18,135 nucleotides of DNA from an uncultured Synergistia bacterium (GTDB lineage Bacteria; Eremiobacterota; SpSt-956; JAKJGF01), in the NCBI GenBank assembly GCA_937888925.1, contig CALARM010000076.1:1-18135 (forward strand). Reading direction: 5' to 3'. Shown here in pieces: positions 1,907-17,858 of the stretch. The translations under genes were made by a program, and so were the position numbers. The notes beneath the pieces were generated by a model. It was not told the DNA's origin. It did no database searches and saw only the letters and a program-made list of their open reading frames with translations. How positions within the stretch are numbered: position 1 is the first letter of the stretch; every line of letters begins with the position of its first letter.

Positions 1907-2209
1907 ATGAAACATGCAGACAAACACAATGCATTGATCCAGAAACTCTGGAAGGACGCAAAATTTAAAGAGGAATTTCTGAAAGATCCCAAAAAACATC
2001 TCGGAGAAGCATTTGGAGCAAAAATACCTGCCGATATGGCAGTTGAGGTTTTACAGGAAACAAAAGGAAAACATTATTTCGTTATACCGGTAAATCCTTC
2101 AGATTACGGAAAAAGCCTGAGTGATACTCAATTGGAAGAAGTGGCCGGCGGTACAATGGGTGTAGTCAGTATGATTGCCTTTGCAACCATAGAAGACTGT
2201 GGTAAATAG
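1907..2209 (+). CDS. NHLP-leader RiPP precursor P1
   Basis: A 100-residue precursor with an 82-residue leader of the NHLP (nitrile-hydratase alpha-like, TIGR03793) type. It shows the N-terminal NALIQKLWKDAKFKEEFLKDP helix, a FVIPVNP segment and LSDTQLEEVAGG at the end. Cleavage is expected after Gly-Gly (82), leaving an 18-residue core, TMGVVSMIAFATIEDCGK. The core has Thr1, Ser6, Thr12 and a single Cys16; Thr12-x3-Cys16 is the likely methyllanthionine pair. The rest is small or hydrophobic and offers Val/Ile sites for radical methylation. Translation is supported by a purine-rich AAGGAGAGGAGAAAGG stretch just upstream, shared in form with P2. P1 is separated from RS1 by two hairpins and a promoter, so it is probably transcribed mainly on its own. 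The leader is nearly identical to those of P2 and P3; the core is not. Confidence 0.92.
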   Translation: MKHADKHNALIQKLWKDAKFKEEFLKDPKKHLGEAFGAKIPADMAVEVLQETKGKHYFVIPVNPSDYGKSLSDTQLEEVAGGTMGVVSMIAFATIEDCGK

Positions 2210-2227
2210 TTTAATCAAATAAACTTA

Positions 2228-2310
2228 CTATACTCTTGCAGAAACTTGAAAAACCTTTGTCCCACAGGGGTGCACGGATCCGTGGGCCCCTGCAAGTGGG
2301 AATAGTGTAG
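2228..2310 (+). other. GC-rich multi-part stem-loop after P1
   Basis: This G+C-rich island in AT-rich DNA is strongly self-complementary. The centre is the 12-bp palindrome CACGGATCCGTG (2273-2284), flanked by CAGGGG/CCCCTG (2265-2270 with 2287-2292), CCCA/TGGG (2261-2264 with 2297-2300), and an outer CTATACT/AGTGTAG pair (2228-2234 with 2304-2310, one G-U). It has no T-tract, so it is not an intrinsic terminator by itself. It may protect the 3' end of the P1 mRNA or be a REP-like repeat unit. Confidence 0.5.
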
Positions 2311-2316
2311 AATCTT

Positions 2317-2352
2317 ATATTACTCTGGATTGACTTCCAGAGTAATATTTTT
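2317..2352 (+). terminator. Intrinsic terminator-like hairpin after P1
   Basis: A perfect 12-bp stem (2317-2328 with 2337-2348; right arm CCAGAGTAATAT), an 8-base loop and a run of five Ts (2348-2352). It would end P1 transcripts and so let the substrate mRNA outnumber that of the enzymes. The same positions overlap a promoter whose -35 box is the loop, so the inverted repeat may instead, or also, be an operator. Confidence 0.5.
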
Positions 2353-2357
2353 ATAAT
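2330..2357 (+). promoter_or_regulatory. Promoter for the RS1-lanM enzyme operon, nested in an inverted repeat
   Basis: The -35 box is TTGACT (2330-2335, 5 of 6), the spacer is 16 bp, and the -10 box is a perfect TATAAT (2352-2357). Transcription would begin near 2364, leaving about a 28-base leader before the RS1 start at 2392. The -35 box lies in the loop of the 12-bp inverted repeat, an arrangement that suits repression by a dimeric DNA-binding protein. This is read from sequence only. Confidence 0.5.
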
Positions 2358-2391
2358 CTGTAATGATAGATAAAAGGAAAGCTCTTATTTT

Positions 2392-4023
2392 ATGAAGATA
2401 TTATTTGCTTTTGATTTTTCAATGCCTATGTATAATTATAATTATATATTTCCCATTGGATTATTAAGTCTGGCTACAATTTTAAAAGAAAAAGATTATG
2501 ATGTTGAAATAGTAGACCTTAATTATTTATTTCTGGATAAGATAATAAATTATGATACAGATCCAATGAAAAATCTCGAAACCGTGGCAGGTTATATAAC
2601 AGGTAAAAATCCTGATATAGTCGGCTTCACAACCACATGCAGTTCTTTTCATAATATTCTGCTTTTATGCCGTCTTATTAAAAATATAAATAATAAGATA
2701 AAAACAATCCTTGGAGGCCCTCAATCGGCATATATGCCTGAAAAAATTCTGGAAAACTATGACTGGATTGATTTAATATGTCCGGGAGAAGGTGAAGCTA
2801 AAATTTTAGATATAGTAAAAGGCCTGGAAGACAATGATTTAAGCTCTGTTCACGGCATAGTATACAGAAATAACGGCAGAATTTCAAGAAATGCTGAAAG
2901 TGATTTAATAAAAGATTTAGACACATTGCCACTCTTAAATTATAATTTAATTCCCTACCCTGACAGATGGGAAATTGCCATGGAAATAACGAGAGGATGT
3001 CCTTATAACTGTATCTTCTGTTCAACTGCTGATTTCTGGAAGCATAAATTCAGACGAAAATCTATAGAACGAATATGTAAAGAAATATTGTCCGTAAAAA
3101 ACTATTCCAGTAAGAAACAGACTCATATTATATTCACAGACGATAATTTTACAACAGATTATAATTTTACAATGAATTTATGCAGGGAACTACAAACACT
3201 GAACATAAAATGGAATTGTGATGCCAGGCTTGATACGTTAGATGAAAAACTCATTAAAGAGATGGCTCTGGCAGGGTGTAAATTTATCCTTATAGGAATA
3301 GAATCCGCATCGCCTGCGATACAAAAATATATAAATAAACATTTGAATTTAGAAAAACTTATGTATGTTGTTGAACTTATGCAGGAAAACAATATTGAAC
3401 CAGTGCCGTCATTTATATATGGTTTCCCTTCTGAAACAGAGGAAGATTTAAATATGACATTAAATACGATTTATTCTTTATTTAAACAAAAGGCCTATAG
3501 AACTATACTTCATTCCCTCTGTGTACTGACGGGGACACAATTATTTGAAGACCAGAAGGATAATTTAATTTTAAAAGATTTTTATTCCGATATAGCAGAT
3601 ACAGAGAATTTTGAGCTGTCCAGGGACATGATTTCAGGCAATAAAGACTTATTTTCTCATTTTTATATTTTCAAGGATTCCATTGCCAGCAGGTATATTC
3701 TTCTGGATAAATTTGTAAATTTTATTCTCAAGCTGCACAGGTTTTTCCCGGAAACGATTACTTCCCTGGCAGGTTTATTTGATGACAATATATTATCTTT
3801 CTATAAAGATTTTCTTATTACCGTTCCCGAATTTACAGATTTTTTTAAGAACAGAAATAATTTTAAACTCATAAAAGAACAATCTGCCATAGTAAAACAT
3901 CTGATTGATTTTCTGACTCTCTATATCAATAAAAAATCATTTAATGATTTCAGTTATGGAATGATCAGCCATAGATTTTGTAATGAAAAAGAAGAACTTG
4001 CAAAAGGAGTGAAAAGTGAATAG
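2392..4023 (+). CDS. B12-binding radical SAM enzyme RS1 (subfamily A), putative peptide C-methyltransferase
   Basis: A 543-residue protein. Residues 1-140 form a cobalamin-binding Rossmann domain (MKILF start, GLLSLATILKEKDYDVEIVD, LGGP, and GEGE near 130). It lacks the DxHxxG cobalt-ligand motif, as BchE-type enzymes do. The radical SAM core follows, with CPYNCIFC giving the 4Fe-4S ligands C203, C207 and C210, then FTDDNFT, GIESASP near 302-308, and YGFPSETEEDL. About 140 C-terminal residues form a helical region of unknown role ending in YINKKSFNDFSYGMISHRFC, a tail shared by all five long enzymes here. A cobalamin plus SAM enzyme beside an NHLP precursor suggests methylation of unactivated carbons in the core, as PoyB/PoyC do. 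That role is inferred. The last codons (GVKSE) and the stop lie inside the left arm of a heptamer-repeat hairpin. Upstream ribosome site is weak (AAAGGAAAG). Confidence 0.85.
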   Translation: MKILFAFDFSMPMYNYNYIFPIGLLSLATILKEKDYDVEIVDLNYLFLDKIINYDTDPMKNLETVAGYITGKNPDIVGFTTTCSSFHNILLLCRLIKNINNKIKTILGGPQSAYMPEKILENYDWIDLICPGEGEAKILDIVKGLEDNDLSSVHGIVYRNNGRISRNAESDLIKDLDTLPLLNYNLIPYPDRWEIAMEITRGCPYNCIFCSTADFWKHKFRRKSIERICKEILSVKNYSSKKQTHIIFTDDNFTTDYNFTMNLCRELQTLNIKWNCDARLDTLDEKLIKEMALAGCKFILIGIESASPAIQKYINKHLNLEKLMYVVELMQENNIEPVPSFIYGFPSETEEDLNMTLNTIYSLFKQKAYRTILHSLCVLTGTQLFEDQKDNLILKDFYSDIADTENFELSRDMISGNKDLFSHFYIFKDSIASRYILLDKFVNFILKLHRFFPETITSLAGLFDDNILSFYKDFLITVPEFTDFFKNRNNFKLIKEQSAIVKHLIDFLTLYINKKSFNDFSYGMISHRFCNEKEELAKGVKSE

Positions 4024-4069
4024 TGAATAGTAATTACTATCCAATTCTATTCACTATTCACTTTTCACT
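4008..4069. repeat. Heptamer-repeat hairpin between RS1 and lanM
   Basis: Perfect 23-bp inverted arms (4008-4030 and 4047-4069) built from tandem 7-mers of the form AGTGAAA/AGTGAAT. The stem can extend through an AATT/AATT pair after a 1-base bulge. The left arm contains the RS1 stop (4021-4023) and the right arm ends 14 bases before the lanM ATG. There is no T-tract. A shorter hairpin of the same repeat lies before RS4. Confidence 0.75.
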
Positions 4070-4083
4070 GTAATTAAAATTTT

Positions 4084-7000
4084 ATGTTAAAAGCTTTAAA
4101 GGAGCTAGTATCAAAAACTGTTTTCATAGATGAACGTATAAATGGTTCTTTTATTTTTGAAGGTGACCATGAAGATATCATTGATGATTACATAAATAAG
4201 TGGCATGAAGTTGTAGCAAAAGGAGATAGCAAGACCTTTGAAAAACGCCTCTCTCTTGATAATCTGGATTTAAACTCTGTAAGGAACATTTTAGGAACAA
4301 TTTCTTTTAATGAACATCTGCCGGAATGGACAGAAATATTTGAAGAGATTATCAACAAAGAAGTTTTAGAGAAAAAATATATTACCTGTAACAGTGATGC
4401 CCGCGATGCCGTTCCTTTTCAGGAAATTCTTTACCCTTTTGTTTTAATAGCCAGAAAAGAGCTTTTGAAGACAGAAATCACACATTTAGCCAGTGAGGAA
4501 AGTTTCAATACTTTTGAGCGTAATCTTCTCCGGTTATTGAGTAATTTATGTGCAGAAACATTGTATTATGAATATATAATATACTGCACCGGCAAACAAC
4601 CTTCTTACGAACTTTATCTGGATCAGGCCAGAAAGAGAGTAAACCCTGAATATTATAGCAATTTTATAGAAGACTTCTTTAATGATTCTTTTATAAATTT
4701 CTTTAGTAAATATCCTGTAATGGCCCGTTTTGTTTCCAGTTGCATAAAACTATGGATAGAAGGAACATGTGAATTTTTCACGAGACTGGAAGAAGATTTA
4801 CCGGAAATTTCCAGAGTTTTCTGTAAAGGTGAAAAACCGGGAAAAGTTGTCCAGGTAAAGCCAGGTATTTCCGATACACATAACAGAGGCAGGTCTGCAA
4901 TAGCCATTACCTTTTCTTCCGGATTGAAATTGATCTATAAACCGAAAGATCTTTCTACAGAAATTGTTTATTTTAAAATACTTTCATGGTTTAATGAACA
5001 TATATCACTGAAGTTTAAAACACTTAAAATAATTAACCGGCTTCATTACGGCTGGGTAGAGTTTGTAGAACACAGGCCATGTAACAATAAGGAAGAAGTG
5101 AAGAATTATTACAGGAGAATGGGTCATTTTCTGTGTGTTATATATGTTATGGGAGGCTCTGACTGTCATTGTGAAAATATTATAGCTTCCGGAGAATATC
5201 CTGTGTTTGTAGATTTAGAAACACTTATGCAGGCCTATATAGGCTCGGATAATAAAGAATATAAAGATAGAGCCTGTGTGATTGCAGATAATAAATTAAC
5301 CAGATCTGTTCTTAAAACAGGCCTTTTACCTAACTGGGTAATACAGGAAAACGGCGAAGCCTGTGACATAAGCGGCATATCAGGGCCAAGTATCAGAAGA
5401 AATTCTGTTCTCCGGGAAAAAGAAAATCTCTCAGACAGACAAATATTGACAGGAACAGAGAGATTCCGAAATGTCTTTAATTTACCTGTTCTTTCCGGTG
5501 AACTTATTATGCCTTTTGAATATATTGACAGTATAGTCAACGGGTTCAGGGAAATATACATGCTTGTTATAGAACACAGAGACTATCTTCTTTCATCTCA
5601 TAGCATTTTAAATGAATTACAGAGTCAAAAGTTTCGTTTTATATACCGTGGTACAAGGGTTTACAATATGTTGTTCAGAAAACTGCTGAGACCTGTTTTC
5701 CTGAAAGACGCTATTTTATTCAGTATTGAACTGGATGTTATTACAAGAGCAATCTTAAAATTTGAACAGAATAAATTATATCCTCTCATAAAATCTGAAA
5801 TATCCAGTATTGAAAGACTTGATATTCCTGTTTTTACAGGTTATTCGGACAGGAATGATTTAATTCTCCCTGATGGGCATATAATAGAAAATGTGTTCGA
5901 AGAACCGGCTTACAGCCGTATTATAACCTGTGTAAAAGGAGCAGGACATGAGGATATGGCATGGCAGATTTCTCTTATAAGGGGAGCATTATACGAAAAG
6001 ACGAAATCTGTCGAAATATGTCATGGCAACATAGAAACGGGTATGCCTTCTATTGAAGAAGAAGCTTTAAGTCAGGTTCTTTTACTCGCAGAACATCTTG
6101 AGAGACTTGCCATATGTTCTGACCCGGGGGAAGCAACATGGATTGGATATGAATATATGCCGGGAGGAGACATATTACAGTTAAGACCGGCAGGTTATAA
6201 CATGTACAGCGGATGCTGCGGCATTTCACTTTTTCTTGCTGCCCTTGCCAGGGTTACTCATAATAACAGGTTTCACAGACTTGCTTTGTCTGCCGTAGAA
6301 GCTACCTGCAGAGACATTAAAGATAAGAGGCTGAAAGACAGAGTTATGGAAAACGGTACAGGAGGACTGGTCGGTCTTGGTTCTATTGTATACAGTCTTG
6401 TATCTGTCAGTCAGTTTCTCGGAGCATCGAAACTTATTGAAACGGCAAAAATAGCGTCTTTACTTATAAAAGATCTGATAACATCTGACAATCGTTTTGA
6501 TATTACAGGCGGTTCAGCAGGAGCTTTACTTGCCTTGCTCAAACTTTATGATCTGATCCATGAGAGGGAAATTCTGGAAATAGCAAGAAAATGCGGAAGC
6601 CATCTTCTGGAAAAGAGGGTTAAAAGTTCAACAGGCTACAGGGCATGGAAAACAGCGGGAAATCATTTGCTATCAGGATTTTCTCATGGAGTTTCCGGCA
6701 TAGCATATGCATTACTTCGCCTTTACAGCTACACGGAAGAGAAAGATTTACTGGAAGCTGCAAAAGAAGCAATATTATATGAAAATACACTCTATTCAAA
6801 ACATTGCGGTAACTGGTTGGATTTAAGAGAAGCTGAAGATAGGCCTGAAGAAAAAAGATTTAAAAATTCCTGGTGTCATGGTGCACCGGGGATTGGTCTG
6901 GGAAGGATTGGAGGGCTATTTGTTCTTGACAGTGAAGAGATAAGGAAAGATATCGATATATCAATAGAGAGAACTATTAAAACATTACTGGACTGCGATT

Positions 7001-7254
7001 ATCTCTGCTGCGGAAATTTCGGACTCGTTGATATTCTGTTAACTGCAGCCATGAAACTTGACAGAAGTGATTTAAAAAAAGAAGCTTTATTGAAAGCATC
7101 TCTCATATCGGGGAAAGCAAAAGAGAGGGGTTTTTTCAACACAGGCTATGAGAATGATTTCTGCGCAGGTTTTTTCCAGGGAATCTCCGGAATTGGCTAT
7201 GAACTTATCCGTTTAAACAATCCGGATATTCCGTCAGTATTATTACTGGAATGA
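4084..7254 (+). CDS. lanM: Class II lanthipeptide synthetase LanM, CCG-type zinc site
   Basis: A 1056-residue bifunctional enzyme, the usual LanM length. The N-terminal dehydratase domain (DUF4135) phosphorylates Ser/Thr and eliminates phosphate. It shows KPKDLSTE, YGWVEF, GGSDCHCENI (D360, H362, N365) and FVDLET (D377-E379). The C-terminal LanC-like cyclase has the Gly-rich barrel repeats YSGCCGISLF, GTGGLVGLGS, GGSAGALLAL and SHGVSGIAYAL. Its zinc ligands are C931 in SWCHGAPGI and C975-C976 in YLCCGNFG. Most LanC/LanM proteins have Cys-His at the last pair; the Cys-Cys form marks the ProcM-like clade known for relaxed substrate choice. It lies between RS1 and RS2 with no separate promoter seen. 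The start at 4084 has no clear Shine-Dalgarno, and a stable hairpin sits just upstream, so translation may be restrained or coupled to RS1. The predicted substrates are Thr12/Cys16-type pairs in P1-P3. Confidence 0.93.
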   Translation: MLKALKELVSKTVFIDERINGSFIFEGDHEDIIDDYINKWHEVVAKGDSKTFEKRLSLDNLDLNSVRNILGTISFNEHLPEWTEIFEEIINKEVLEKKYITCNSDARDAVPFQEILYPFVLIARKELLKTEITHLASEESFNTFERNLLRLLSNLCAETLYYEYIIYCTGKQPSYELYLDQARKRVNPEYYSNFIEDFFNDSFINFFSKYPVMARFVSSCIKLWIEGTCEFFTRLEEDLPEISRVFCKGEKPGKVVQVKPGISDTHNRGRSAIAITFSSGLKLIYKPKDLSTEIVYFKILSWFNEHISLKFKTLKIINRLHYGWVEFVEHRPCNNKEEVKNYYRRMGHFLCVIYVMGGSDCHCENIIASGEYPVFVDLETLMQAYIGSDNKEYKDRACVIADNKLTRSVLKTGLLPNWVIQENGEACDISGISGPSIRRNSVLREKENLSDRQILTGTERFRNVFNLPVLSGELIMPFEYIDSIVNGFREIYMLVIEHRDYLLSSHSILNELQSQKFRFIYRGTRVYNMLFRKLLRPVFLKDAILFSIELDVITRAILKFEQNKLYPLIKSEISSIERLDIPVFTGYSDRNDLILPDGHIIENVFEEPAYSRIITCVKGAGHEDMAWQISLIRGALYEKTKSVEICHGNIETGMPSIEEEALSQVLLLAEHLERLAICSDPGEATWIGYEYMPGGDILQLRPAGYNMYSGCCGISLFLAALARVTHNNRFHRLALSAVEATCRDIKDKRLKDRVMENGTGGLVGLGSIVYSLVSVSQFLGASKLIETAKIASLLIKDLITSDNRFDITGGSAGALLALLKLYDLIHEREILEIARKCGSHLLEKRVKSSTGYRAWKTAGNHLLSGFSHGVSGIAYALLRLYSYTEEKDLLEAAKEAILYENTLYSKHCGNWLDLREAEDRPEEKRFKNSWCHGAPGIGLGRIGGLFVLDSEEIRKDIDISIERTIKTLLDCDYLCCGNFGLVDILLTAAMKLDRSDLKKEALLKASLISGKAKERGFFNTGYENDFCAGFFQGISGIGYELIRLNNPDIPSVLLLE

Positions 7255-7297
7255 GCAATATTTATAATACTCTGAAAAATGTCTGGAGGAATAAGAT

Positions 7298-8992
7298 ATG
7301 AAAATATTATTTATAGAGAACTTTCAATATATCCATGGTACCTATAAATATCCCAATATAACCCTGGGATTACTGGGTCTGGCTACAATTTTGAAAGAAA
7401 ACAATTATGATGTTGAATTGATAAATTTCAATTATTTATTTTTAAATAACCTGATAAATTATGATTTTGATACAGAAAAAAAATTTGAAACTATGGCTGA
7501 CTATATAATGGATAAAGAGCCTGATATAGTAGGATTCACTGCTCTGTGCAATACCTTCCACAATGTTCTCTTATTATCCAGAATCATTAAAGAGAGGAAT
7601 AATAAAATCAAAATAATACTCGGAGGACCTCATGCATCACTCGCACCTGAAACTGTATTAAAAGATTACCCGTGGATTGATTTAGTATGCGTGGGAGAAG
7701 GTGAAAGAAATATCGTCAGTATAATAAAAGGCCTGAGAAATGACTCTCTCACCTCTGTACCCGGTATTGTATACAGAAATGATTCACAGATTATAAGAAC
7801 CCATGACAGTGAAATGGTAAAAGATTTAGATTCTTTACCTTTATTAAATTACGATTTAATCCTGTCTTTTAAAGACATAACCTTTGTCGACATAGAGGCA
7901 GGGAGAGGCTGTCCTTACAGATGCACTTACTGTGCAACAAATAAATACTGGAAGTATAATTTCAGATTAAAATCTGTAGATCGTATATGTAAAGAGATTT
8001 TGGAAGTAAAGAAAATCCTGGGTGATAAAAAGGTTTTCTTTAATTTTATCCAGGATAATCTTACAACAAACTATGATTTTATAATAAATTTATGTGACAG
8101 ATTACAGGAACTGCATATTCAATGGGGATGTAATGCAAGACTTGATACACTGGATGAAAAACTCATTAAACGAATGGCAGACGCAGGCTGTACCAAGCTT
8201 CTTATGGGGCTCGAATCTGCGTCTCCGTCTATGCAGAAACACATTAACAAAAACTTGAACCTTGAATCTGTGGAGACTATTGTTGACCTTCTCAAAAAAT
8301 ATAATATAGACCCACTTATATCATTTATGTACGGCTTTCCGGATGAGACAGAGGAAGATTTACTTCTCACATTAAATATGATTTATTCTATAGTAAAAAA
8401 AGGTATTTTTACTCATCTCCATTCCTTATGTGTTTTACCGGGCAGCCAGTTATTTGAACATTATAAAGATAAACTGGTATTAAGAGATTTTTATTCCACT
8501 GTCATAGAGGCGTCTGAAACTAAAACCCTGAGCTCTATGAACCTGAACAATAAAGAATTATTTTCTCAATTTTATATACTTGAAGATTCCCTTGCAGATA
8601 AATATTTTCTCCTTCCAGGATTTATCAATCACATCTTTATAAGGTTATATCCTTTTTTCCAGGAGACACTTGATCTATTATTGGAGGAATTTGACAATGA
8701 TTTATTGTCTTTCTATAAAGATTTCCTGAATAATACAGAGCAATTTGCAGCTTTTTTTAAGAATAAAGAACATGAAAAATTTGTAATAAAAAATGGTATC
8801 TTAATAAGGAATACTGACCTGGTTGAACATCTGATAAAATTTTTAACAGAATATATAAATAATAAGTCTCCAGGCGATTTCACTTTCAGCATGATTTCTC
8901 ACAAATTGTGTGAAGAAATAGAAGCTTTCTCCAATAAACAGGATATTAAAGTAAAAGGGAAAGTCTATCCCCAGTGGTTCAGGAAAGATTAA
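7298..8992 (+). CDS. B12-binding radical SAM enzyme RS2 (subfamily B)
   Basis: A 564-residue enzyme with the same plan as RS1: an N-terminal cobalamin domain (GLLGLATILKENNYDVELIN, LGGPHAS, CVGEGE), a radical SAM domain with AGRGCPYRCTYC (C205, C209, C212), GLESASPSMQKHINKNLNLE and YGFPDETEEDL, and the tail YINNKSPGDFTFSMISHKLC. Differences from subfamily A are the CPYRCxYC cluster loop, VDIEAGRGC in place of MEITRGC before it, and an opening MKILFIENFQYIHGTYK shared almost exactly with RS7. RS2 and RS7 are therefore sister copies flanking the enzyme block. A GGAGGA site at 7285-7290 sets the start, 43 bases after the lanM stop, so the two are probably one transcript. The role, C-methylation or another radical change of the core peptide, is inferred from family and context. 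Confidence 0.85.
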   Translation: MKILFIENFQYIHGTYKYPNITLGLLGLATILKENNYDVELINFNYLFLNNLINYDFDTEKKFETMADYIMDKEPDIVGFTALCNTFHNVLLLSRIIKERNNKIKIILGGPHASLAPETVLKDYPWIDLVCVGEGERNIVSIIKGLRNDSLTSVPGIVYRNDSQIIRTHDSEMVKDLDSLPLLNYDLILSFKDITFVDIEAGRGCPYRCTYCATNKYWKYNFRLKSVDRICKEILEVKKILGDKKVFFNFIQDNLTTNYDFIINLCDRLQELHIQWGCNARLDTLDEKLIKRMADAGCTKLLMGLESASPSMQKHINKNLNLESVETIVDLLKKYNIDPLISFMYGFPDETEEDLLLTLNMIYSIVKKGIFTHLHSLCVLPGSQLFEHYKDKLVLRDFYSTVIEASETKTLSSMNLNNKELFSQFYILEDSLADKYFLLPGFINHIFIRLYPFFQETLDLLLEEFDNDLLSFYKDFLNNTEQFAAFFKNKEHEKFVIKNGILIRNTDLVEHLIKFLTEYINNKSPGDFTFSMISHKLCEEIEAFSNKQDIKVKGKVYPQWFRKD

Positions 8993-9000
8993 GAGAAATT

Positions 9001-9022: not shown

Positions 9023-9061
9023 AGACTTTAACAGAGTTCAGTCAAAAATTGAAGGGGGTTT

Positions 9062-10399: not shown

Positions 10400-10471
10400 G
10401 GGAGTGTGTAAAAACAACAGATGCTTTCAGGTACAATGGGAAAAGAAATTTATTGTCGTGAGTCGTGAAGA

Positions 10472-10523
10472 GTGAAAAGTGAAAAGTGCAGGATTTATCC
10501 GCCATTCACTATTCACTTTTCAC
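10472..10523. repeat. Heptamer-repeat hairpin before RS4
   Basis: 17-bp arms, 10472-10488 and 10507-10523, match at 16 of 17 when one is inverted. The repeat unit GTGAAAA/GTGAATA is the same as in the 4008-4069 hairpin, with further degenerate units (GTCGTGA twice) just to the left. It lies 5 bases before the RS4 Shine-Dalgarno, which resembles the placement of the other hairpin just before lanM. Confidence 0.65.
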
Positions 10524-10541
10524 CAATTAAGGAGTATTATT

Positions 10542-11918
10542 ATGTTGATAGCTTTATGTAATCTTGCCACTATGCCATATAAAGAAGGTAACTTTGTTCC
10601 CGGGAAAAATCCCTTTGCTCACAGAAGTCCCTGTCCTTATAATATTTATCTCCTTGCTGCCATTATGGAACAGGGAGGATATGAAATTTCTATAAAAGAC
10701 TGGACGGGAAAAGGATGTGAATTTCAGGAACTGGTCGGGGAACTTATCGGTTTTGACGTAATCATGATGTCAAGTAATTCCTGGAACTGGTATCCCACTG
10801 CATGTCTCATAGAAAAACTCCGCTCTGTAAGAGATGATCAGATATTTGTAGTTGGAGGATTACAGGCAACACTGTTCGGACAAAAAATCATGGAAGAATA
10901 TCCTGTTGACTATGCAGTAAGAGGAGAGGCAGAAAAGTCTGTAATTCCCCTTCTCAGGCTTATAGAAAAAAAAGGAAAACCACAGGAAGTTCCCGGACTG
11001 GTCTATAAGGAAAATGGCGCAATAAGGTTAAATCCCGTGTCTCCCCTGATGACACCTGAAGAAATGTCACTTCTGCCTCTGGCTCTCTATGAAAAGCTTC
11101 AGGAAGGAACTTATAACTGGCTTTCAATAGAAGCCTCAAGAGGATGTGTCAATCACTGCAGCTATTGTTCCACTCCCTATCAGATAAACTGGCGTCCTTT
11201 AAGTGCTGAAACTGTAGTTGATCGTATAGAATCTTATATTCCCTATCTGGGAAAGGTATTGACAGGGAAATTTATCTTTATTGATGACAGTTTCATAATA
11301 GATGTTAAAAGAGCAAGACAAATAGCACGACTCCTGAGAGAAAGACAGATTGATATAAAGGCCATATGGAACGGTCATGTAACGGAACTATTTGAGGAAG
11401 AAATGCTCATAGAACTTAATCCCTATACTGAAGCCATATTCGTAGGTGCAGAATCATGTCATGAAGAAACTCTGAAAAAAATAGGGAAACATTTTAAACC
11501 GGAAGATATCATGAAAGGTGCGGAAATAGCCGTTAAAACCGGTACAGATAAAAAACTATTCTTTTCATTTATTATCGGTTTTCCATGGCAGAATAAAGAA
11601 ATTATTATAAAAGAAATAGATAAAATTTATTCTCTTGTATCTATAACCGGCGCCTGTGCTATTATCAGATGGCTCCTGTTAAATCCCGGTTCCCGCATAT
11701 GGAATGAATTTTATAACAAAAAGAAAGCACCGCTTCGAAATTTTCGCAAACTTTATCAGGAATGGAAAGAAGAGGCCTTTCCTCTGAGTGAAGAAGAAGA
11801 GCAGGAAATAACCTCTTATGCAATATCTTTACAAAATTCTATTCCAGGAGGAACATACAGGTTTCAATTTCTCCAGGGAATTAATAATATGATAAAAAAC
11901 ATATTCCCTGGTACATAA
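10542..11918 (+). CDS. B12-binding radical SAM enzyme RS4 (subfamily C, short)
   Basis: 458 residues from the ATG at 10542. This start is chosen over an in-frame ATG at 10479 because AAGGAG lies at 10529-10534, because MLIALCNL matches the RS3 start exactly, and because the longer N-terminus would be translated repeat hairpin. Domains are as in RS3: a cobalamin domain, then SRGCVNHCSYC (C202, C206, C209), FIDDSF, GAESCHEETLKKIGKHF and FIIGFPWQNKE. It carries a few extra N-terminal residues (PGKNPFAHRSPCP) and a longer C-terminus than RS3. A 183-base stretch (10818-11000) is identical to RS3, while flanking DNA differs, which points to gene conversion. Function is inferred from family and context, as a peptide-modifying radical enzyme. 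Confidence 0.84.
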   Translation: MLIALCNLATMPYKEGNFVPGKNPFAHRSPCPYNIYLLAAIMEQGGYEISIKDWTGKGCEFQELVGELIGFDVIMMSSNSWNWYPTACLIEKLRSVRDDQIFVVGGLQATLFGQKIMEEYPVDYAVRGEAEKSVIPLLRLIEKKGKPQEVPGLVYKENGAIRLNPVSPLMTPEEMSLLPLALYEKLQEGTYNWLSIEASRGCVNHCSYCSTPYQINWRPLSAETVVDRIESYIPYLGKVLTGKFIFIDDSFIIDVKRARQIARLLRERQIDIKAIWNGHVTELFEEEMLIELNPYTEAIFVGAESCHEETLKKIGKHFKPEDIMKGAEIAVKTGTDKKLFFSFIIGFPWQNKEIIIKEIDKIYSLVSITGACAIIRWLLLNPGSRIWNEFYNKKKAPLRNFRKLYQEWKEEAFPLSEEEEQEITSYAISLQNSIPGGTYRFQFLQGINNMIKNIFPGT

Positions 11919-11990
11919 ATTTCCGGTTATTATGTGGTCGTGACGGGTAAGGCGCAATGGCATTAAGATAAGAAAATGACGTTTTATTTT

Positions 11991-12020
11991 CCCTCCCTTG
12001 AGGGAGGGACTAAGGGAGGG
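11991..12020 (+). promoter_or_regulatory. CCCTCCCT / AGGGAGGG hairpin overlapping the RS5 ribosome site
   Basis: CCCTCCCT (11991-11998) can pair perfectly with AGGGAGGG at 12001-12008, or with the second AGGGAGGG at 12013-12020. The second copy is the probable Shine-Dalgarno of RS5 (ATG at 12031). Pairing with one copy frees the other, so the element could gate translation. It could equally be an ordinary dispersed intergenic repeat. Confidence 0.4.
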
Positions 12021-12030
12021 TGTCTTTCAA

Positions 12031-13716
12031 ATGAAAATATTATTTATCGTGCCTTTCGATCATGTTTCTTTCCTTCATGGAACATATATTATGCCTCTGG
12101 GATTAATCAGCCTTGCCACAATTCTAAAAGAAAATAATAAAGATGTTGAAATAATAGACTTCAATTATTTATTTTTTAATAACATAGTGGAATATAGTAA
12201 AGATCAGGGAAAAAACATGGAAACCATGGCTGAATATATACTGGGTAAATCCCCTGATATTATCGGATTTACCTGTGTTTCCGTCACTTTTCATCATGTA
12301 TTGTTTTTATCCCGTCTTATTAAAAATAAAAATAATAATATTAAGATAATATCAGGAGGGCCGCAGGCATCGAATTTTTCAGAGAAAATTCTGGAAAATT
12401 TCCCATGGATTGATTTAATATGCAGGGGTGAAGGGGAACATAAGATCTTACATATCATAAAAGGACTGGAGACCGATGATTTAACAGACGTTCCCGGCAT
12501 AATCTACAGAAATAATGATATAATTTCAGAAAATGCAGATATACCTCTGATAGAAGATATGGATACATTACCCCTGTTGAATTATGCTCTCAGCCCCGGA
12601 GGTTACGAAGGCAAAATTTCTATGGAAATAAGCAGAGGCTGTCCTTATAATTGTATCTTTTGTTCAACATCAAAGTACTGGAAGAGAAAATTCAGGGTAA
12701 AATCCATAGAACGTATTTGCAGGGAAATATCACTTATAAAAGAAGCTATTCCTGATAATCATAAACTTTGTATCAATTTTATTGATGATAATTTCACAAC
12801 AAATCATAATTTTATAATGAATTTGTGTGCCGAATTGAGAAAATTTGATATTACATGGACCTGCAACGGGAGACTCAATACACTGAATGAAGAACTTATT
12901 AAACAGATGGCTCTTTCTGGATGCAGGTCTGTTTTTATGGGCATAGAATCAGGTTCTCCCCGGGTACAGAAATATATTAACAAAAATTTGAATCTTGAAA
13001 AAGTTAATTCTATTTTTGATACTATATTAAAATATAATATTAAACCTACTGTGTCATTTGTTTATGGCTTCCCCGGGGAAACAGAAGAAGAACTGAATTT
13101 AACCTTAAATATGATTTATTCTTTACTTAAAAAGGGAGTGTATCTGTGCAGATTACATTCTCTCTGTGTCATCACGGGCACAAAATTATTTGAAGACCAT
13201 AAAGATAATTTGATTTTAGGTAATCTGATGTTAAAAGATTTTTATTCAGACCCGGCAGAGGGGGCTAATTTTGAAGATTGCAGAGCCCTTATTATGAAGG
13301 ACAAAAAATTATTTCCTCATTTTTATACTCTTAAGGATTCCCTCTGTGAGAAATATTCTATGCTGGATAAGTTTGTAAATTTTATTTTTAAGCTCTATAA
13401 TTTTTTTCCTGAGACAATTACTTCTCTGGTCAGCTTATTTAATGATGATATATTATCTTTCCATAAAGATTTTCTGAGCAATACACAGAAATTTGCAGAT
13501 TTTTATAATAATAATGAACATCTGAATATTATAATGAAAGATGGCAGTCCGGTAAAGAATTCAGAATTAGGTAAACAGGTAATAATTTTTCTGACGGAAT
13601 ATATAAATAATAAATCATTGAGTGATTTCAGTTTCAACATAATTTCTCATAAATTTTGTGAGGAAATAGACCATAAAGCAGGGAAAATATCTCTTTTACC
13701 TGCGGTTCAGGAGTGA
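12031..13716 (+). CDS. B12-binding radical SAM enzyme RS5 (subfamily A)
   Basis: 561 residues from the ATG at 12031. An upstream in-frame TTG (11998) would add 11 residues encoded by the G-rich repeat and is rejected, since MKILFIV aligns with the starts of RS1 and RS6. It has an N-terminal cobalamin domain, then SRGCPYNCIFC (C204, C208, C211), FIDDNFTTNHNF, GIESGSPRVQKYINKNLNLE, YGFPGETEEEL, and the tail YINNKSLSDFSFNIISHKFC. It is closest to RS6, sharing LSPGGY just before the cluster loop. Near base 13207 an imperfect 15-base tandem duplication adds five residues (LGNLM) to the conserved LILKDFYSD segment. Its stop is 3 bases before the RS6 ATG, so the two are translationally coupled. The proposed role is radical C-methylation of a precursor core. 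Confidence 0.85.
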   Translation: MKILFIVPFDHVSFLHGTYIMPLGLISLATILKENNKDVEIIDFNYLFFNNIVEYSKDQGKNMETMAEYILGKSPDIIGFTCVSVTFHHVLFLSRLIKNKNNNIKIISGGPQASNFSEKILENFPWIDLICRGEGEHKILHIIKGLETDDLTDVPGIIYRNNDIISENADIPLIEDMDTLPLLNYALSPGGYEGKISMEISRGCPYNCIFCSTSKYWKRKFRVKSIERICREISLIKEAIPDNHKLCINFIDDNFTTNHNFIMNLCAELRKFDITWTCNGRLNTLNEELIKQMALSGCRSVFMGIESGSPRVQKYINKNLNLEKVNSIFDTILKYNIKPTVSFVYGFPGETEEELNLTLNMIYSLLKKGVYLCRLHSLCVITGTKLFEDHKDNLILGNLMLKDFYSDPAEGANFEDCRALIMKDKKLFPHFYTLKDSLCEKYSMLDKFVNFIFKLYNFFPETITSLVSLFNDDILSFHKDFLSNTQKFADFYNNNEHLNIIMKDGSPVKNSELGKQVIIFLTEYINNKSLSDFSFNIISHKFCEEIDHKAGKISLLPAVQE

Positions 13717-13719
13717 GTA

Positions 13720-15381
13720 ATGAAAATACTGTTTATCGTGCCTCTGGATCATATGACTTTTAATAATGTCATATATATTATGCCTCTGGGTTTGCTCAGC
13801 CTTGCTACAATTCTGAAGGAGAACAATGAAGATGTTGAGATAATAGACTTCAATTATTTATTTTTAAATAAGATGGTGGAATACAGTAACGATCAGGTAA
13901 AAAACATGGAAACAATGGTTGAATATATACTGGGGAAATCTCCTGATATTATCGGATTTACAGGTGTTTGCAGCACCTTTCATAATGTATTGTTTTTATC
14001 CAGTCTTATTAAAGATAAAGATAATCATATTAAGATAATGTTAGGAGGACCTCAGACATCGAGTTTATCTAAAGAAATCCTGCAGATGTTCCCCTGGATC
14101 GATTTAATATGTGTCGGAGAAGGAGAAAATAAGATCTCAGCCATCATAAAAGGACTGGAGAGGAATGATTTAACAGACGTTGCCGGTATAACTTATAGAA
14201 ATAACGGTATGATTTTACAAAATACAGACATGCCTCTCATAGAAGATCTGGACGCTTTGCCTCTGTTAAATTATACTCTCAGCCCCGGAGGTTACACCGG
14301 AGGCAATGTTTCTATGGAGATAACCAGAGGCTGTCCTTATAACTGTATCTTCTGTTCAACATCACAGTTCTGGAAGCGCAGGTTCAGAACAAAATCCATA
14401 GAACGTATCTGTAAAGAAATAGCAATCATAAAAGAAATTTCCCATAAGGATAAGCTTTTTGTCAGTTTTATCGATGATAATTTTACAACAGATTATAATT
14501 TTACAATGAAATTATGTCATTCCCTGCAAAAACTTGATATTAAATGGGATTGCAGTGCCAGAATCGATACGGTGGATGATGAGCTTATAAAACAGATGGC
14601 TCTTGCAGGATGTGCCGGTATTTTTCTGGGGATAGAATCAGGCTCACCCCGTATACAGAAATATATTAAGAAAAATTTGAATCTTGAACAGGTTAATCCT
14701 CTCATTGATACTATGATAAAATATAATATTAAACCGATTGTATCATTTATGTATGGTTTTCCTGAAGAAACGGAAGAAGACCTGAATTTAACATTAAATA
14801 TGTTATATTCTGTATTAAAAAAAGGCAGTCATAGAACACAATTACAGTGCTTATGTATTCTGCCGGGAACTCAATTATTCAATCAATATAAAGATAAGCT
14901 TGTTTTTAAAGATTGTCATTCGAGCCTGACAGATAATTACATCTTCGAATCCTGTAATTCTTTTATTATTGAAAACAGGGAAATATTTCCCAATCTTTAC
15001 GTGCTTGAAAATACCCTTGCAGATAAATACCCTCATCTGGACAGGTTTGTTACTTTTATATTTACTCATTTATACAGGTTTTTTCCTGAAACACTCAATC
15101 TGATATTAAATCTATTTGAAAATAATTTATTAACCTTTTATAATGATTTTCTATTTACTGCTGATGGTTTATCAGATTACTGGATTACAGAAGATTACCG
15201 GAAAGATTTAACAGGAACAGCAGGACTTACGAAAAAAGCTATTGCTTTTCTGACAGAATATATAAATAATAAATCATTTAATGATTTCAGTTTCAAAATA
15301 ATTTCCCATAAATTTTGTGCGGAGAAAAGCAATATGATAACGGTTTATAAAGATTCTCAGAAAAGAGAGGATGAGAAATAA
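13720..15381 (+). CDS. B12-binding radical SAM enzyme RS6 (subfamily A)
   Basis: A 553-residue enzyme, a tandem paralog of RS5. The N-terminal cobalamin domain opens MKILFIVPLDHMTF. The cluster loop is TRGCPYNCIFC (C205, C209, C212), followed by FIDDNFTTDYNF, GIESGSPRIQKYIKKNLNLE, YGFPEETEEDL and the C-terminal YINNKSFNDFSFKIISHKFC. AGGAG (13709-13713) lies inside the end of RS5, six bases before the ATG, so expression should follow RS5 closely. About 100 bases separate its stop from P2, and that gap holds a good promoter. This suggests the enzyme operon may end or weaken here, although no terminator is visible. The middle of the C-terminal region differs most from RS5, consistent with divergence in partner or substrate binding. 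Confidence 0.85.
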   Translation: MKILFIVPLDHMTFNNVIYIMPLGLLSLATILKENNEDVEIIDFNYLFLNKMVEYSNDQVKNMETMVEYILGKSPDIIGFTGVCSTFHNVLFLSSLIKDKDNHIKIMLGGPQTSSLSKEILQMFPWIDLICVGEGENKISAIIKGLERNDLTDVAGITYRNNGMILQNTDMPLIEDLDALPLLNYTLSPGGYTGGNVSMEITRGCPYNCIFCSTSQFWKRRFRTKSIERICKEIAIIKEISHKDKLFVSFIDDNFTTDYNFTMKLCHSLQKLDIKWDCSARIDTVDDELIKQMALAGCAGIFLGIESGSPRIQKYIKKNLNLEQVNPLIDTMIKYNIKPIVSFMYGFPEETEEDLNLTLNMLYSVLKKGSHRTQLQCLCILPGTQLFNQYKDKLVFKDCHSSLTDNYIFESCNSFIIENREIFPNLYVLENTLADKYPHLDRFVTFIFTHLYRFFPETLNLILNLFENNLLTFYNDFLFTADGLSDYWITEDYRKDLTGTAGLTKKAIAFLTEYINNKSFNDFSFKIISHKFCAEKSNMITVYKDSQKREDEK

Positions 15382-15392
15382 ATCAATAAATA

Positions 15393-15421
15393 TTTACCTG
15401 GATTATATAAAATGTTATACT
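15393..15421 (+). promoter_or_regulatory. Promoter for the P2-P3 precursor pair
   Basis: TTTACC (15393-15398), a 17-bp spacer and TATACT (15416-15421, 5 of 6) sit in the gap after RS6. A start near 15428 gives about 55 bases of leader before the P2 ATG. It would allow separate, strong expression of the substrates. Sequence match only. Confidence 0.5.
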
Positions 15422-15482
15422 GTAAAAGTAATTTTTTTAAATTTCCACAAAAAATATTAGAGAGAGGAGACAGGGTAAAATT

Positions 15483-15779
15483 ATGAAATATGGAGAGAAA
15501 CATAACGCACTGATTCAGAAACTGTGGAAGGATGCAAAATTTAAAGACGAATTTCTGAAAGACCCCAAAAAACATCTCGGAGAAGCATTTGGAACTAAAC
15601 TGCCTGATGACATGCATTTTGAAGTCTTACAGGAAACTAAAGGGAAACATTATTTTGTTATTCCTGTAAATCCGGCAGATTACGGTAAAGAATTGAGTGA
15701 TGCACAATTACAGGAAGTTGCCGGAGGCACAATTGGTGTAGTCGGTATGGTTGTGGCTGTAACATACTCCGAGTGCTGA
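15483..15779 (+). CDS. NHLP-leader RiPP precursor P2
   Basis: A 98-residue precursor. The 82-residue leader differs from P1 at only about a dozen positions and ends in LSDAQLQEVAGG. The predicted core is the 16-residue TIGVVGMVVAVTYSEC, with Thr1, Thr12, Ser14 and Cys16 as the last residue. Thr12-x3-Cys16 has the same numbering as in P1. The TIGVVGMVVAV stretch is rich in valine and resembles the start of the polytheonamide core (also Thr after GG, then Gly/Val/Ala), from memory of that family. An AGAGAGGAGACAGGG ribosome site and TAAAATT spacer precede the ATG, as in P1. P3 follows after 43 bases, so the two are probably one transcript. Confidence 0.93.
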   Translation: MKYGEKHNALIQKLWKDAKFKDEFLKDPKKHLGEAFGTKLPDDMHFEVLQETKGKHYFVIPVNPADYGKELSDAQLQEVAGGTIGVVGMVVAVTYSEC

Positions 15780-15822
15780 GAATTGTAATCATAATATACT
15801 GGAGAGGAGAAAATTAAAAACC

Positions 15823-16116
15823 ATGAAACACAGTGAGAAACATAATGCATTGATCCAGAAACTCTGGAAGGATGCAAAATTTAAAGAGGAATTTCTGAAA
15901 GATCCTAAAAAACATCTTGGAGAAGTATTTGGCACAAAACTGCCTGATGATATTAACATTGAGGTTTTACAGGAAAGTAAAGGGAAACATTATTTTGTCA
16001 TTCCTGTAAATCCTGCAGATTATGGGAAAGAACTCCGTGATTCTCAATTAGAGGAAGTTGCCGGAGGAACAGTAGATATAATAGCTATTATTGTTGTAAC
16101 AGTAGACGCATGTTAA
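15823..16116 (+). CDS. NHLP-leader RiPP precursor P3
   Basis: A 97-residue precursor. The 82-residue leader is near-identical to P1 and P2 and ends LRDSQLEEVAGG. The predicted 15-residue core is TVDIIAIIVVTVDAC, with Thr1, Thr11 and a terminal Cys15; again Thr-x3-Cys. It has no Ser, and Thr1 and Thr11 are its only hydroxyl residues, so at most two dehydrations and one ring are possible. The rest is Ile/Val/Ala with two Asp. TGGAGAGGAG upstream is the ribosome site. The leader DNA is closer to P1 than to P2 in the early part (the GCATTGATCCAGAAACTC segment is shared), which suggests duplication and shuffling among the three genes. Confidence 0.93.
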   Translation: MKHSEKHNALIQKLWKDAKFKEEFLKDPKKHLGEVFGTKLPDDINIEVLQESKGKHYFVIPVNPADYGKELRDSQLEEVAGGTVDIIAIIVVTVDAC

Positions 16117-16122
16117 ATATTA

Positions 16123-16170
16123 AATGAAATTATTACTCCGGAAAGTCATTTCCAGAGTAATAATTTCATT
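16123..16170. promoter_or_regulatory. Long hairpin between P3 and RS7, related to the one after P1
   Basis: 22-bp arms (16123-16144 and 16149-16170) with a single mismatch and a 4-base loop. The centre, TATTACTCCGGA...TCCAGAGTAATA, repeats the stem of the 2317-2348 hairpin. Here it is followed on the + strand by As, not Ts, so it is not a standard terminator. It lies 14 bases before the RS7 ATG. Candidate roles are an operator, an mRNA processing or stability element for the precursors, or a brake on RS7 translation. Confidence 0.6.
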
Positions 16171-16184
16171 AAAAAAAATATTCT

Positions 16185-17858
16185 ATGAAAATATTACTTA
16201 TAGAGAATTTTCAATATATCCATTCTATCTATAAATCCCCCGGTATACCTCTGGGATTATTAAGTCTGGCTACAATCTTAAAAGAAAAAGATTATGATGT
16301 GGAACTGATAAACTTCAATTATTTATTTTTAAATAACATAATAAATTACGATTTTGATACAGGAAAGAAATTTGAGATTATGGCCGACTATATAATGAAT
16401 AAAGATCCGGATGTAGTAGGATTTACGGTTCTGTGCAATACCTTTCACAATGTTCTGTTATTATCACAGCTAATTAAACGGAGGAATAGCAAAATCAAAA
16501 TAATACTGGGAGGCCCTCATGCATCAATTGTGCCTGAAACTATTTTAGGAGATTACCCGTGGATTGATCTGGTATGCGTGGGAGAAGGTGAAGGCAATAT
16601 AGTAAGTATAATAAAAGGTCTGGAAGGTAACTCACTCACCTCTGTCCCAGGTATTGTATACAGAAATAATTCAATGATTATAAGAAATCCTGACAGTGAA
16701 ATGATAAAAGATCTGGATAGTTTGCCTTTATTAAATTATGACTTGATCCTGTCTTTTAACGACATAACCAGTGTTCCCATAGATGCAGGGAGAGGCTGTC
16801 CTTACAGGTGTATCTACTGCGCAACAGGTAAATACTGGCACCATAATTTCAGATTAAAATCTGTAGATCGTATCTGTAAAGAGATAGAGGATGTAAAAAA
16901 CATTCTGGGTAATAAAAAACTTTTCTTTAATTTTACCCATGATAACCTTACAACAAACTATGATTTTGTAATGAATTTATGTGACAGATTAGAGGAACTC
17001 AATATTGAATGGGGATGTAATGCAAGGCTCGACACATTGAATGAAAAACTCATTAAAAGAATGGCAGAAACAGGGTGTACCAGGATTCTGATGGGACTGG
17101 AATCCGCATCTCCGGCTGTACAGAAACATATTAACAAAAATTTGAACCTTGACTCTATCGATAATATTATTGATATTATGGGAACATATAATATAGTACC
17201 TTTTATATCATTTATATACGGATTTCCCGAAGAAACAGAGGAAGATTTAGTTCTCACATTAACTATGCTTTATTCTATACTTAAAAAAAATATTGTTATT
17301 CATTTACATTCCTTATGTGTTTTACCCGGTACTCAATTATTTGAAGATTATAAAGATAAATTAGTTCTGAGAGATTTTTATTCCACCCTTGTAGAAGCTT
17401 CCGATCATGAAATTTTAAAGTCTATAAACCTGAAAAATAAAGAATTGTTTTCTCAATTTTACATACTTCAGGATTCACTCGTAGATAAATATTTTCTCCT
17501 TCCCGGTTTCATTAATCATATACTGATAAAATTATACCATTTCATACCTGAGACATTCGATTTATTATTAAAACTATTCGACAATAATTTATTGTCTTTC
17601 TACAAGGATTTCCTGGATAATACAGAGAAATTTGCACGTTTTTATAATAATAAAGATCATGAAAAAATTATAAGGAAAAATGATACCTTAATAAGAAATA
17701 CCGAACTGAATGAACATGTAATAAATTTTTTAACGGAATATATAAATAATAAGTCACCAGGTAATTTTACCTTTAGTATAATTGCCCACAAATTTTGTGA
17801 AGAAATAGACCATAAAGGAGGAGTAAAGAACCTTCCCCACTGGTTAAAGAGAGGCTAA
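16185..17858 (+). CDS. B12-binding radical SAM enzyme RS7 (subfamily B)
   Basis: A 557-residue enzyme, the sister of RS2: MKILLIENFQYIHSIYK at the start, LGGPHAS and CVGEGE in the cobalamin domain, AGRGCPYRCIYC (C205, C209, C212), FTHDNLTTNYDF, GLESASPAVQKHINKNLNLD, YGFPEETEEDL, and the tail YINNKSPGNFTFSIIAHKFC. No DxHxxG motif is present. No Shine-Dalgarno is visible; an A-rich stretch runs from the hairpin straight into the ATG, so translation is either weak or helped by the nearby structure. It follows P3 directly and could act on P2/P3 products, as RS1 follows P1 directly. Role inferred. Confidence 0.84.
   Translation: MKILLIENFQYIHSIYKSPGIPLGLLSLATILKEKDYDVELINFNYLFLNNIINYDFDTGKKFEIMADYIMNKDPDVVGFTVLCNTFHNVLLLSQLIKRRNSKIKIILGGPHASIVPETILGDYPWIDLVCVGEGEGNIVSIIKGLEGNSLTSVPGIVYRNNSMIIRNPDSEMIKDLDSLPLLNYDLILSFNDITSVPIDAGRGCPYRCIYCATGKYWHHNFRLKSVDRICKEIEDVKNILGNKKLFFNFTHDNLTTNYDFVMNLCDRLEELNIEWGCNARLDTLNEKLIKRMAETGCTRILMGLESASPAVQKHINKNLNLDSIDNIIDIMGTYNIVPFISFIYGFPEETEEDLVLTLTMLYSILKKNIVIHLHSLCVLPGTQLFEDYKDKLVLRDFYSTLVEASDHEILKSINLKNKELFSQFYILQDSLVDKYFLLPGFINHILIKLYHFIPETFDLLLKLFDNNLLSFYKDFLDNTEKFARFYNNKDHEKIIRKNDTLIRNTELNEHVINFLTEYINNKSPGNFTFSIIAHKFCEEIDHKGGVKNLPHWLKRG

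Follow-up and report, generated by a model that had tools for sequence, protein, structure and literature searches.

The plus strand of the window (the whole stretch of DNA analysed, 18,135 nt) carries three precursor genes with NHLP leaders, one LanM gene and seven genes for B12-binding radical SAM proteins (RS1–RS7), with a 5′-cut exporter gene upstream. The open reading frames of the RS genes, LanM and the precursors are uninterrupted and all lie on this strand, and the RS genes interleave with the precursors and LanM across short intergenic gaps:

3..1460, plus strand: NHLP-system export ABC transporter permease/ATPase subunit (ABC2 type), truncated at its 5′ end by the window; TIGR03797
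1907..2209, plus strand: precursor P1, NHLP leader ending EVAGG, core TMGVVSMIAFATIEDCGK; TIGR03793, 76.8 bits
2317..2348, plus strand: hairpin downstream of P1, T-rich tail; fold z-score -5.3
2392..4023, plus strand: RS1, B12-binding radical SAM, 543 aa; PF02310, PF04055; ApyD profile NF050148, 238 bits (cut-off 750)
4084..7254, plus strand: LanM class II lanthipeptide synthetase, 1056 aa, CCG-type zinc site; TIGR03897, 846.8 bits; motifs; LicM2 and CylM matches
7298..8992, plus strand: RS2, B12-binding radical SAM, 564 aa; domain and profile matches; 75% identical to RS7
9062..10399, plus strand: RS3, shorter B12-binding radical SAM, 445 aa; domain and profile matches; model pLDDT 83.4; best Foldseek match MgmA
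10542..11918, plus strand: RS4, tandem RS3 paralogue, 81% identical; domain and profile matches; start placed by the RS3 alignment and an upstream AAGGAG
12031..13716, plus strand: RS5, B12-binding radical SAM, 561 aa; domain and profile matches; 62% identical to RS6
13720..15381, plus strand: RS6, B12-binding radical SAM, 553 aa; domain and profile matches; model pLDDT 92.8
15483..15779, plus strand: precursor P2, core TIGVVGMVVAVTYSEC; TIGR03793, 76.2 bits
15823..16116, plus strand: precursor P3, core TVDIIAIIVVTVDAC; TIGR03793, 79.5 bits
16120..16173, plus strand: hairpin after P3; fold z-score -8.6; stem part TCCAGAGTAATA shared with the P1 hairpin
16185..17858, plus strand: RS7, B12-binding radical SAM, 557 aa; domain and profile matches, identity comparison

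RS4 and RS5 probably start at the ATG codons at 10542 and 12031, respectively. The exporter, truncated where the window begins, aligns to positions 211–686 of the 686 in TIGR03797 at 701.6 bits (cut-off 709.4). The hairpin after P1 probably attenuates read-through from the precursor into the enzymes, and the one after P3 has a terminator-like score on the minus strand only. No Rfam family was found in the window at gathering scores.

Precursors and the lanthipeptide synthetase

All three precursors exceed the 50.9-bit cut-off of the curated NHLP-leader model (TIGR03793) and carry a Gly-Gly-type site, with EVAGG preceding Thr1, which places them among the proteusins. They are 74–78% identical to one another, mostly within the leader, and their cores are 15–18 residues long. 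LanM lies well above its own cut-off (304 bits for TIGR03897) and combines a dehydratase with a LanC-like cyclase; SWCHG (Cys931), CCGN (Cys975/976) and the dehydratase motifs are all present, as in class II lanthipeptide synthetases.

Comparison with 12 precursors from other sequences, giving 15 distinct precursors in all, reveals which core residues are kept. Thr at core position 1 is present in every one of the 15, and Thr-x3-Cys, the ring spacing of a class II lanthipeptide, stands near the core end in 17 of 17 rows representing those precursors. Because both features are so strictly conserved, a single methyllanthionine ring per peptide is the natural prediction. The preliminary description had proposed a proteusin-lanthipeptide hybrid, and the curated leader and LanM models together with the one conserved Thr-x3-Cys per core back that proposal. 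The remainder of the core varies: there are 0–2 aromatic residues per core, none invariant, and Asn is absent from the three cores of the window, which therefore lack the NX5N motif of the polytheonamides. Permethylation of Val and Ile cannot be the rule for the precursor group as a whole, since the 11 more distant members have only 2–3 Val/Ile per core.

The seven B12 radical SAM enzymes

Each of the seven RS proteins matches PF02310 and PF04055 above the Pfam gathering scores and has one CxxxCxxC motif, which assigns them to the B12-dependent radical SAM superfamily; the predicted folds of RS6 and RS3 agree, and cobalamin binding is predicted from these domains and models. Together with TIGR03793 and TIGR03897, these matches bear out the gene set first described: three NHLP precursors, one LanM and seven B12 radical SAM proteins on a single strand. 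No radical SAM protein without a B12-binding domain is present in the window, and the Pfam scan of the window proteins matched no RRE.

The seven had been divided into three subfamilies. They are better described as two families rather than three equal ones: RS1, RS2, RS5, RS6 and RS7 share 51–75% identity with one another and only about 24–30% with RS3 and RS4, although the larger family does split into three lineages (RS1; RS2 and RS7; RS5 and RS6). In the paralogue pairs dN is below dS. RS1, RS2, RS6 and RS7 are each closer to some sequence elsewhere than to any paralogue in the window, so the division into lineages is older than the locus. This bears on how the number seven should be read. 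The enzymes may not represent seven steps on one peptide; each could serve its own precursor (or one that has been lost or lies outside), with two or three enzymes per peptide and the total reflecting duplication of a precursor-enzyme cassette. The arrangement fits: downstream of P1 come a hairpin and then RS1, downstream of P2-P3 a hairpin whose stem is in part the same and then RS7, and the closest RS pairs are RS3/RS4 and RS2/RS7. However, the lineages RS1, RS2/RS7 and RS5/RS6 are old, each having separate relatives among other sequences, and the similarity of the precursors lies mostly in the leader, such that a common set of enzymes could bind every one of them. We regard this explanation as somewhat unlikely.

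Profile comparisons place the larger family nearest to a peptide methylase. RS1, RS2, RS5, RS6 and RS7 score 238–293 bits with the ApyD profile, 144–150 bits with HpnJ (cut-off 577.6) and 125–160 bits with BchE (cut-off 481.35), so that ApyD leads the better of the latter two by 88–145 bits. RS3 and RS4 score 66–69 bits with ApyD and 58–63 with HpnJ and BchE, and they score highest with TIGR04013 and BzaD (80–87 bits). Thus the five proteins of the larger family do not cluster with the hopanoid and bacteriochlorophyll enzymes, whereas RS3 and RS4 find their best matches elsewhere than in ApyD. Scores with TIGR03975, the RiPP C-methyltransferase family, are 44–116 bits against a cut-off of 281.85, and none of the seven reaches any of the curated cut-offs compared. 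The ranking of HpnJ and BchE directly after ApyD for most of the larger family, the TIGR04013 and BzaD scores of RS3 and RS4, and two RS6 relatives on rhizobial plasmids that adjoin aminotransferase, transketolase, racemase or decarboxylase genes could be taken to mean that the RS genes function in the metabolism of lipids, tetrapyrroles or other small molecules and lie here by accident. We rejected a lipid or tetrapyrrole role, and consider an accidental location highly improbable, because the seven genes are interspersed among the precursor and LanM genes, closely spaced and on a single strand; in addition, a second LanM elsewhere shares contig size and source with two RS relatives. A PADLOC candidate-defence match of RS6 (91.8 bits) was read as general similarity among B12 radical SAM proteins.

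The heavy C-methylation suggested initially is plausible in that five RS proteins are nearest to the ApyD methylase, but all seven fall below the TIGR03975 and ApyD cut-offs. Structure does not settle the reaction, since the best match of the RS6 model is a dehydratase: AprD4, a diol dehydratase that to our knowledge works without cobalamin, ranks first in Foldseek and ties for best in VIA-align. OxsB, a ring-contraction enzyme, is also among the best structural matches. It is thus worth considering that the RS enzymes act in the same pathway and mostly do not methylate, making C-C or C-S cross-links, dehydrating or rearranging side chains. The structural matches and the sub-threshold methylase scores are consistent with this, as is the precedent of PbsB, a B12 radical SAM enzyme of a RiPP cluster described as forming a C-C cross-link between ortho-tyrosines (PMC12257519). 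Nonetheless, the cores offer few aromatic residues and no invariant one, the top profile relative is a methylase, ApyD acting on the C-beta of peptidyl-Tyr (PMC11117315), and MgmA, TsrM, TokK and CysS align about equally well. On balance, a mostly non-methylating set seems to us quite unlikely.

Relatives and comparison with known systems

From 351 LanM relatives on genome contigs, 80 loci were retained, the best at 40% identity and none close; viral contigs yielded one distant LanM relative and no precursor relative. Among these 81 LanM loci, many with cut flanks, tblastn (E<=1e-3) found NHLP-like precursors at 20 and an RS relative at one (L010). As a small comparison, 15 further genomes were examined that had been identified by way of their LanM relatives; 10 of them gave RS-profile matches (17 in all, E<=1e-40), each on a contig of its own, several of these assemblies being fragmented. 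Of 398 genomes from the phylum that includes G001, with up to three candidates scored per genome, one had a match at E<=1e-75; it sits at a contig end, and the single further ORF retained there, within 2.6 kb, resembles no window protein. TIGR03975 matched 221 of 292 genomes from the phylum that includes G011 at E<=0.001 (up to four candidates scored per genome), none over the cut-off, and likewise none in 14 control genomes. RS3 had no relative at E<=1e-40 in 198 genomes, an empty outcome that in such a search proves nothing. On plasmids, four records hold precursor-like matches (38–44% identity), 19 match RS3 (the best ten at 23–30%) and 146 match RS6 (the best ten at 25–37%); the two RS6-relative neighbourhoods read contain no annotated NHLP or LanM gene in a gene table that is incomplete.

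Two RS relatives, 78% (P0144) and 49% (P0145) identical to RS2, and a LanM relative (P0011, 45%) come from Candidatus Eremiobacterota by NCBI name; Ca. Eudoremicrobium, the source of pythonamide, is placed in Eremiobacterota. The next-nearest LanM proteins (P0004–P0013, 45–49% identity) have no same-size contig among the 120 RS relatives listed, nor have the RS relatives P0147, P0148 and P0150, on long contigs, among the 120 LanM proteins listed. Hence the pairing of LanM with RS enzymes is not universal. Size alone can mislead in such matching, as P0104 and P0211 both have contigs of 5,520 bases from different sources.

Among known systems, polytheonamide and aeronamide (poy, aer) have an rSAM epimerase and, in contrast with the full-length LanM here, a LanM-type enzyme reduced to the dehydratase domain; their PoyB and PoyC are presumably TIGR03975 members. 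The common elements are the NHLP leader, B12 radical SAM enzymes and a dehydratase of the LanM type that acts on Thr1 (PMC9505594, PMC11285071), and the differences are a core numbered to 49 and two B12 radical SAM enzymes, PoyB and PoyC (PMC11285071), against 15–18 residues and seven enzymes outside TIGR03975. The window thus lacks the NX5N motif, rSAM epimerase and long core of the polytheonamide subgroup. Landornamide-type proteusins have an epimerase and an arginase instead of many B12 radical SAM enzymes. They have the NHLP leader of the present locus and lanthionine rings of the kind predicted for it, and pythonamide, likewise a proteusin, has a B12 radical SAM C-methylase, EreB, making up to 7 methylations, on a 46-residue core for which the accessible text gives one such methylase and no lanthionine (PMC9259500). 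The aminopyruvatide cluster of ApyD has another precursor with P450 and MNIO partners, and ApyD bears an RRE (PMC11117315). Closer in content is the Chloroflexota MAG locus L010, with an NHLP-like precursor and LanM adjacent to the one B12 radical SAM enzyme seen, a TIGR03975 member (686 bits). Bottromycin is made from a follower rather than a leader peptide, and we know of no LanM or NHLP leader in its cluster. It has three B12 radical SAM C-methylases for one short peptide, and against these printed counts (PMC11285071) the earlier description of seven as an unusually large set is fair; the accessible text of another source mentions "multiple" such enzymes in some clusters and gives no number (PMC12257519). 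Searches of the open PMC literature, judged by titles and abstract openings and with most subscription papers outside it, turned up no description of many B12 radical SAM genes together with LanM and NHLP.

A proposed pathway and its implications

What is directly observed is which genes are present, their catalytic motifs, the core residues that are conserved and dN below dS in the paralogue pairs; each chemical step that follows is one we infer. The locus is probably a proteusin-lanthipeptide hybrid RiPP operon in which LanM closes the ring and most or all RS enzymes C-methylate the aliphatic segment. Its output would be up to three peptides of 15–18 residues. LanM would recognise the NHLP leader, phosphorylate Thr residues and eliminate the phosphate, and form one methyllanthionine near the C terminus between the Cys and the conserved Thr that precedes it by four positions; the invariant Thr1 is probably dehydrated as well. 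Most or all of the seven RS enzymes would methylate unactivated carbons in the aliphatic segment separating Thr1 from the ring, with methylcobalamin as the methyl donor, the paralogues dividing the work by site or by precursor. The peptides would then be cleaved after Gly-Gly and exported by an NHLM transporter that includes the upstream ABC2 subunit, its peptidase-bearing partner presumably lying beyond the window. The distance of RS3 and RS4 from the other RS proteins and the failure of all seven to reach a curated cut-off count against the methylation part of this model.

A bolder version invokes the bulky tert-alkyl alpha-keto cap known from polytheonamides. LanM would dehydrate Thr1 and B12 radical SAM enzymes would methylate it several times over to give such a cap, with the single methyllanthionine at the other end and the remaining RS enzymes methylating nearly every aliphatic residue between, making a miniature per-methylated proteusin of a new class. 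We consider this version unlikely; if true, seven radical methylases per 15–18 residues would yield a capped, hydrophobic, protease-resistant peptide.

Radical C-methylation of peptides is difficult for chemists and rare among known products. The locus appears to make very short ring-closed peptides, and its seven B12 radical enzymes could yield chemistry that has never been isolated. The seven diverged enzymes, three natural cores and twelve related cores are a ready set for studies of site choice. Furthermore, the RS enzymes do not belong to the curated RiPP C-methyltransferase family; should they prove to be methylases, NHLP systems would have acquired C-methylation on more than one occasion.

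Layout of the locus

The 18,135-base window has a G+C content of 34% and carries on one strand, in order, an ABC transporter, P1, RS1, LanM, RS2, RS3, RS4, RS5, RS6, P2, P3 and RS7. The preliminary description, which had recognized three NHLP-leader precursors (P1 to P3), LanM and seven B12 radical SAM genes (RS1 to RS7) on a single strand, is borne out by curated models, Pfam domains and motifs. Specifically, all three precursors score over the cut-off of the curated NHLP-leader model; LanM lies far above that of its own model, can be aligned with LicM2 and CylM, and contains the motifs YKPKDLS, SDCHCEN, VDLETLMQ, RGTRVY, SWCHG and CCGN; and all seven RS proteins exceed the Pfam cut-offs for B12-binding and radical SAM domains, each with one CxxxCxxC motif. 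By the features tested, the locus is that of a proteusin and class II lanthipeptide. Accompanying features are:

3-1460, same strand as the precursors, LanM and RS genes: NHLP-system ABC transporter, 3′ part
2317-2348, 3′ of P1: stably folding hairpin with a T-rich tail, terminator-like on the plus strand
16120-16173, 3′ of P3: stably folding hairpin, terminator-like score on the minus strand only

The hairpins have part of their stem sequence in common, and may increase the amount of precursor transcript relative to that of the enzymes. A G+C-rich palindrome (2265-2292, fold z-score -2.8) also lies in A+T-rich surroundings between P1 and RS1. Inverted repeats at 4008-4069, overlapping the end of RS1, and 10472-10523, just upstream of RS4, have arms that are 100% and 94% complementary with GTGAATA/GTGAAAA heptads, and may constitute a small repeat element. 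At 18096-18135 a new reading frame with AGGAGG upstream, starting MNINTSTHIKGNI, runs off the window end.

Families and history of the radical SAM enzymes

RS1, RS2, RS5, RS6 and RS7 are 51-75% identical in pairwise comparison; RS3 shares 81% identity with RS4, and this pair about 24-30% with the other five. Among NCBIfam profiles, ApyD scores best for the five (238-293 bits against a cut-off of 750), with HpnJ and BchE behind it (125-160 bits), whereas RS3 and RS4 match TIGR04013 best (about 87 bits) and BzaD next. None of the seven reaches the cut-off (281.85) of the RiPP C-methyltransferase family TIGR03975 (44-116 bits), and all fall outside this curated family. Within the RS3/RS4 region (9062-11918), 97-99% of bases are alike over RS3 residues 81-160 and 79-91% elsewhere, an unevenness that suggests gene conversion or uneven divergence. 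RS6 (13720-15381) also matches the PADLOC candidate family PDC-M51A (91.8 bits), probably through general B12 radical SAM similarity. B12 radical SAM-like genes are not rare on contigs classed as viral, since 226 of 296 pattern-matched stretches there encode distant RS6 relatives (23-31% identity among the 80 of these that were retained, L095-L174).

The RS tree holds 49 proteins, namely the window's seven and 42 of the 120 relatives listed; these 42 are P0136-P0180 minus P0137, P0138 and P0141, which are copies of window proteins. P0136 is sister to RS6 (100/99), and P0151, a fragment of 328 residues, to RS1 (100/100), while RS2, RS7, P0140, P0143 and P0144 form one group (100/100) that places RS2 with weak support (90/32). 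Three RS lineages are thus older than the locus. In the paralogue pairs dN is well below dS, and therefore the copies have been kept in use. In the comparison of the 49 proteins P0142 cannot be told from RS7, and we treat it as that gene in a second assembly; relatives P0144, P0145 and P0011 bear the name Candidatus Eremiobacterota.

In a tree of 41 LanM proteins, P0066 groups with the window LanM (94/92), on a long branch. From matching size and source in the relatives tables, we infer that a single 9,982-base contig carries P0066 together with the RS relatives P0139 and P0146, and that another, of 6,574 bases, carries LanM P0001 and precursor P0128, although equal sizes can be accidental (P0104 and P0211, from different sources, are both 5,520 bases). 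The same tables gave no such match for LanM proteins at 45-49% identity or for three RS relatives on long contigs, which argues against a universal LanM-RS pairing.

Precursor cores and proposed chemistry

A search with P2 returned 14 proteins, two of them the window's own P1 and P3. The 17-row precursor alignment (15 distinct) shows strong conservation of the leader, and three core residues never vary, namely Thr1 and, within Thr-x3-Cys, the Thr and the Cys; among the aligned precursors a second Cys occurs only in P0121, and residues (two) after the Cys only in P1. Between window precursors, pairwise dN and dS are 0.07-0.11 and 0.69-1.03 for the leaders, and 0.48-0.53 and 0.48-0.74 for the cores, where each value is based on 15-16 codons. 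Val and Ile are abundant in the window cores (4, 6 and 8 residues), but the 11 more distant precursors have only 2 or 3 each.

Because each window core has one Cys, the natural prediction is a single five-residue methyllanthionine ring per peptide. In polytheonamide biosynthesis, according to PMC9505594, Thr1 is dehydrated by a LanM-type dehydratase domain and methylated four times by PoyC, and the enamine turns into an alpha-keto cap once the peptide has been cleaved. Given that Thr1 comes after the Gly-Gly site in all the precursors and that the window LanM is complete, it is possible that these peptides carry a similar cap at Thr1 and the ring at the other end. A more cautious reading is one ring together with C-methylation of aliphatic side chains. 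Some RS enzymes might instead cross-link, a possibility we keep because PbsB is described as doing so in another RiPP cluster (PMC12257519).

Relation to known systems

The seven RS enzymes compare with two B12 radical SAM enzymes serving the whole polytheonamide core and three in bottromycin (PMC11285071); some MNIO clusters are described as having "multiple" such enzymes (PMC12257519). Open-access (PMC) literature, by title or start of abstract, yielded no match for many B12 radical SAM enzymes with LanM and NHLP. The present account is drawn from a single locus. Like the window, L010, a locus in a Chloroflexota MAG, has an NHLP-like precursor, LanM and an adjoining B12 radical SAM gene (13357-15824); unlike the window's enzymes, that of L010 falls within TIGR03975, its 686 bits also serving as a check on the profile. 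The grouping of NHLP precursor, LanM and B12 radical SAM enzyme is thus found elsewhere with another enzyme branch, the window using its own branch, in seven copies.
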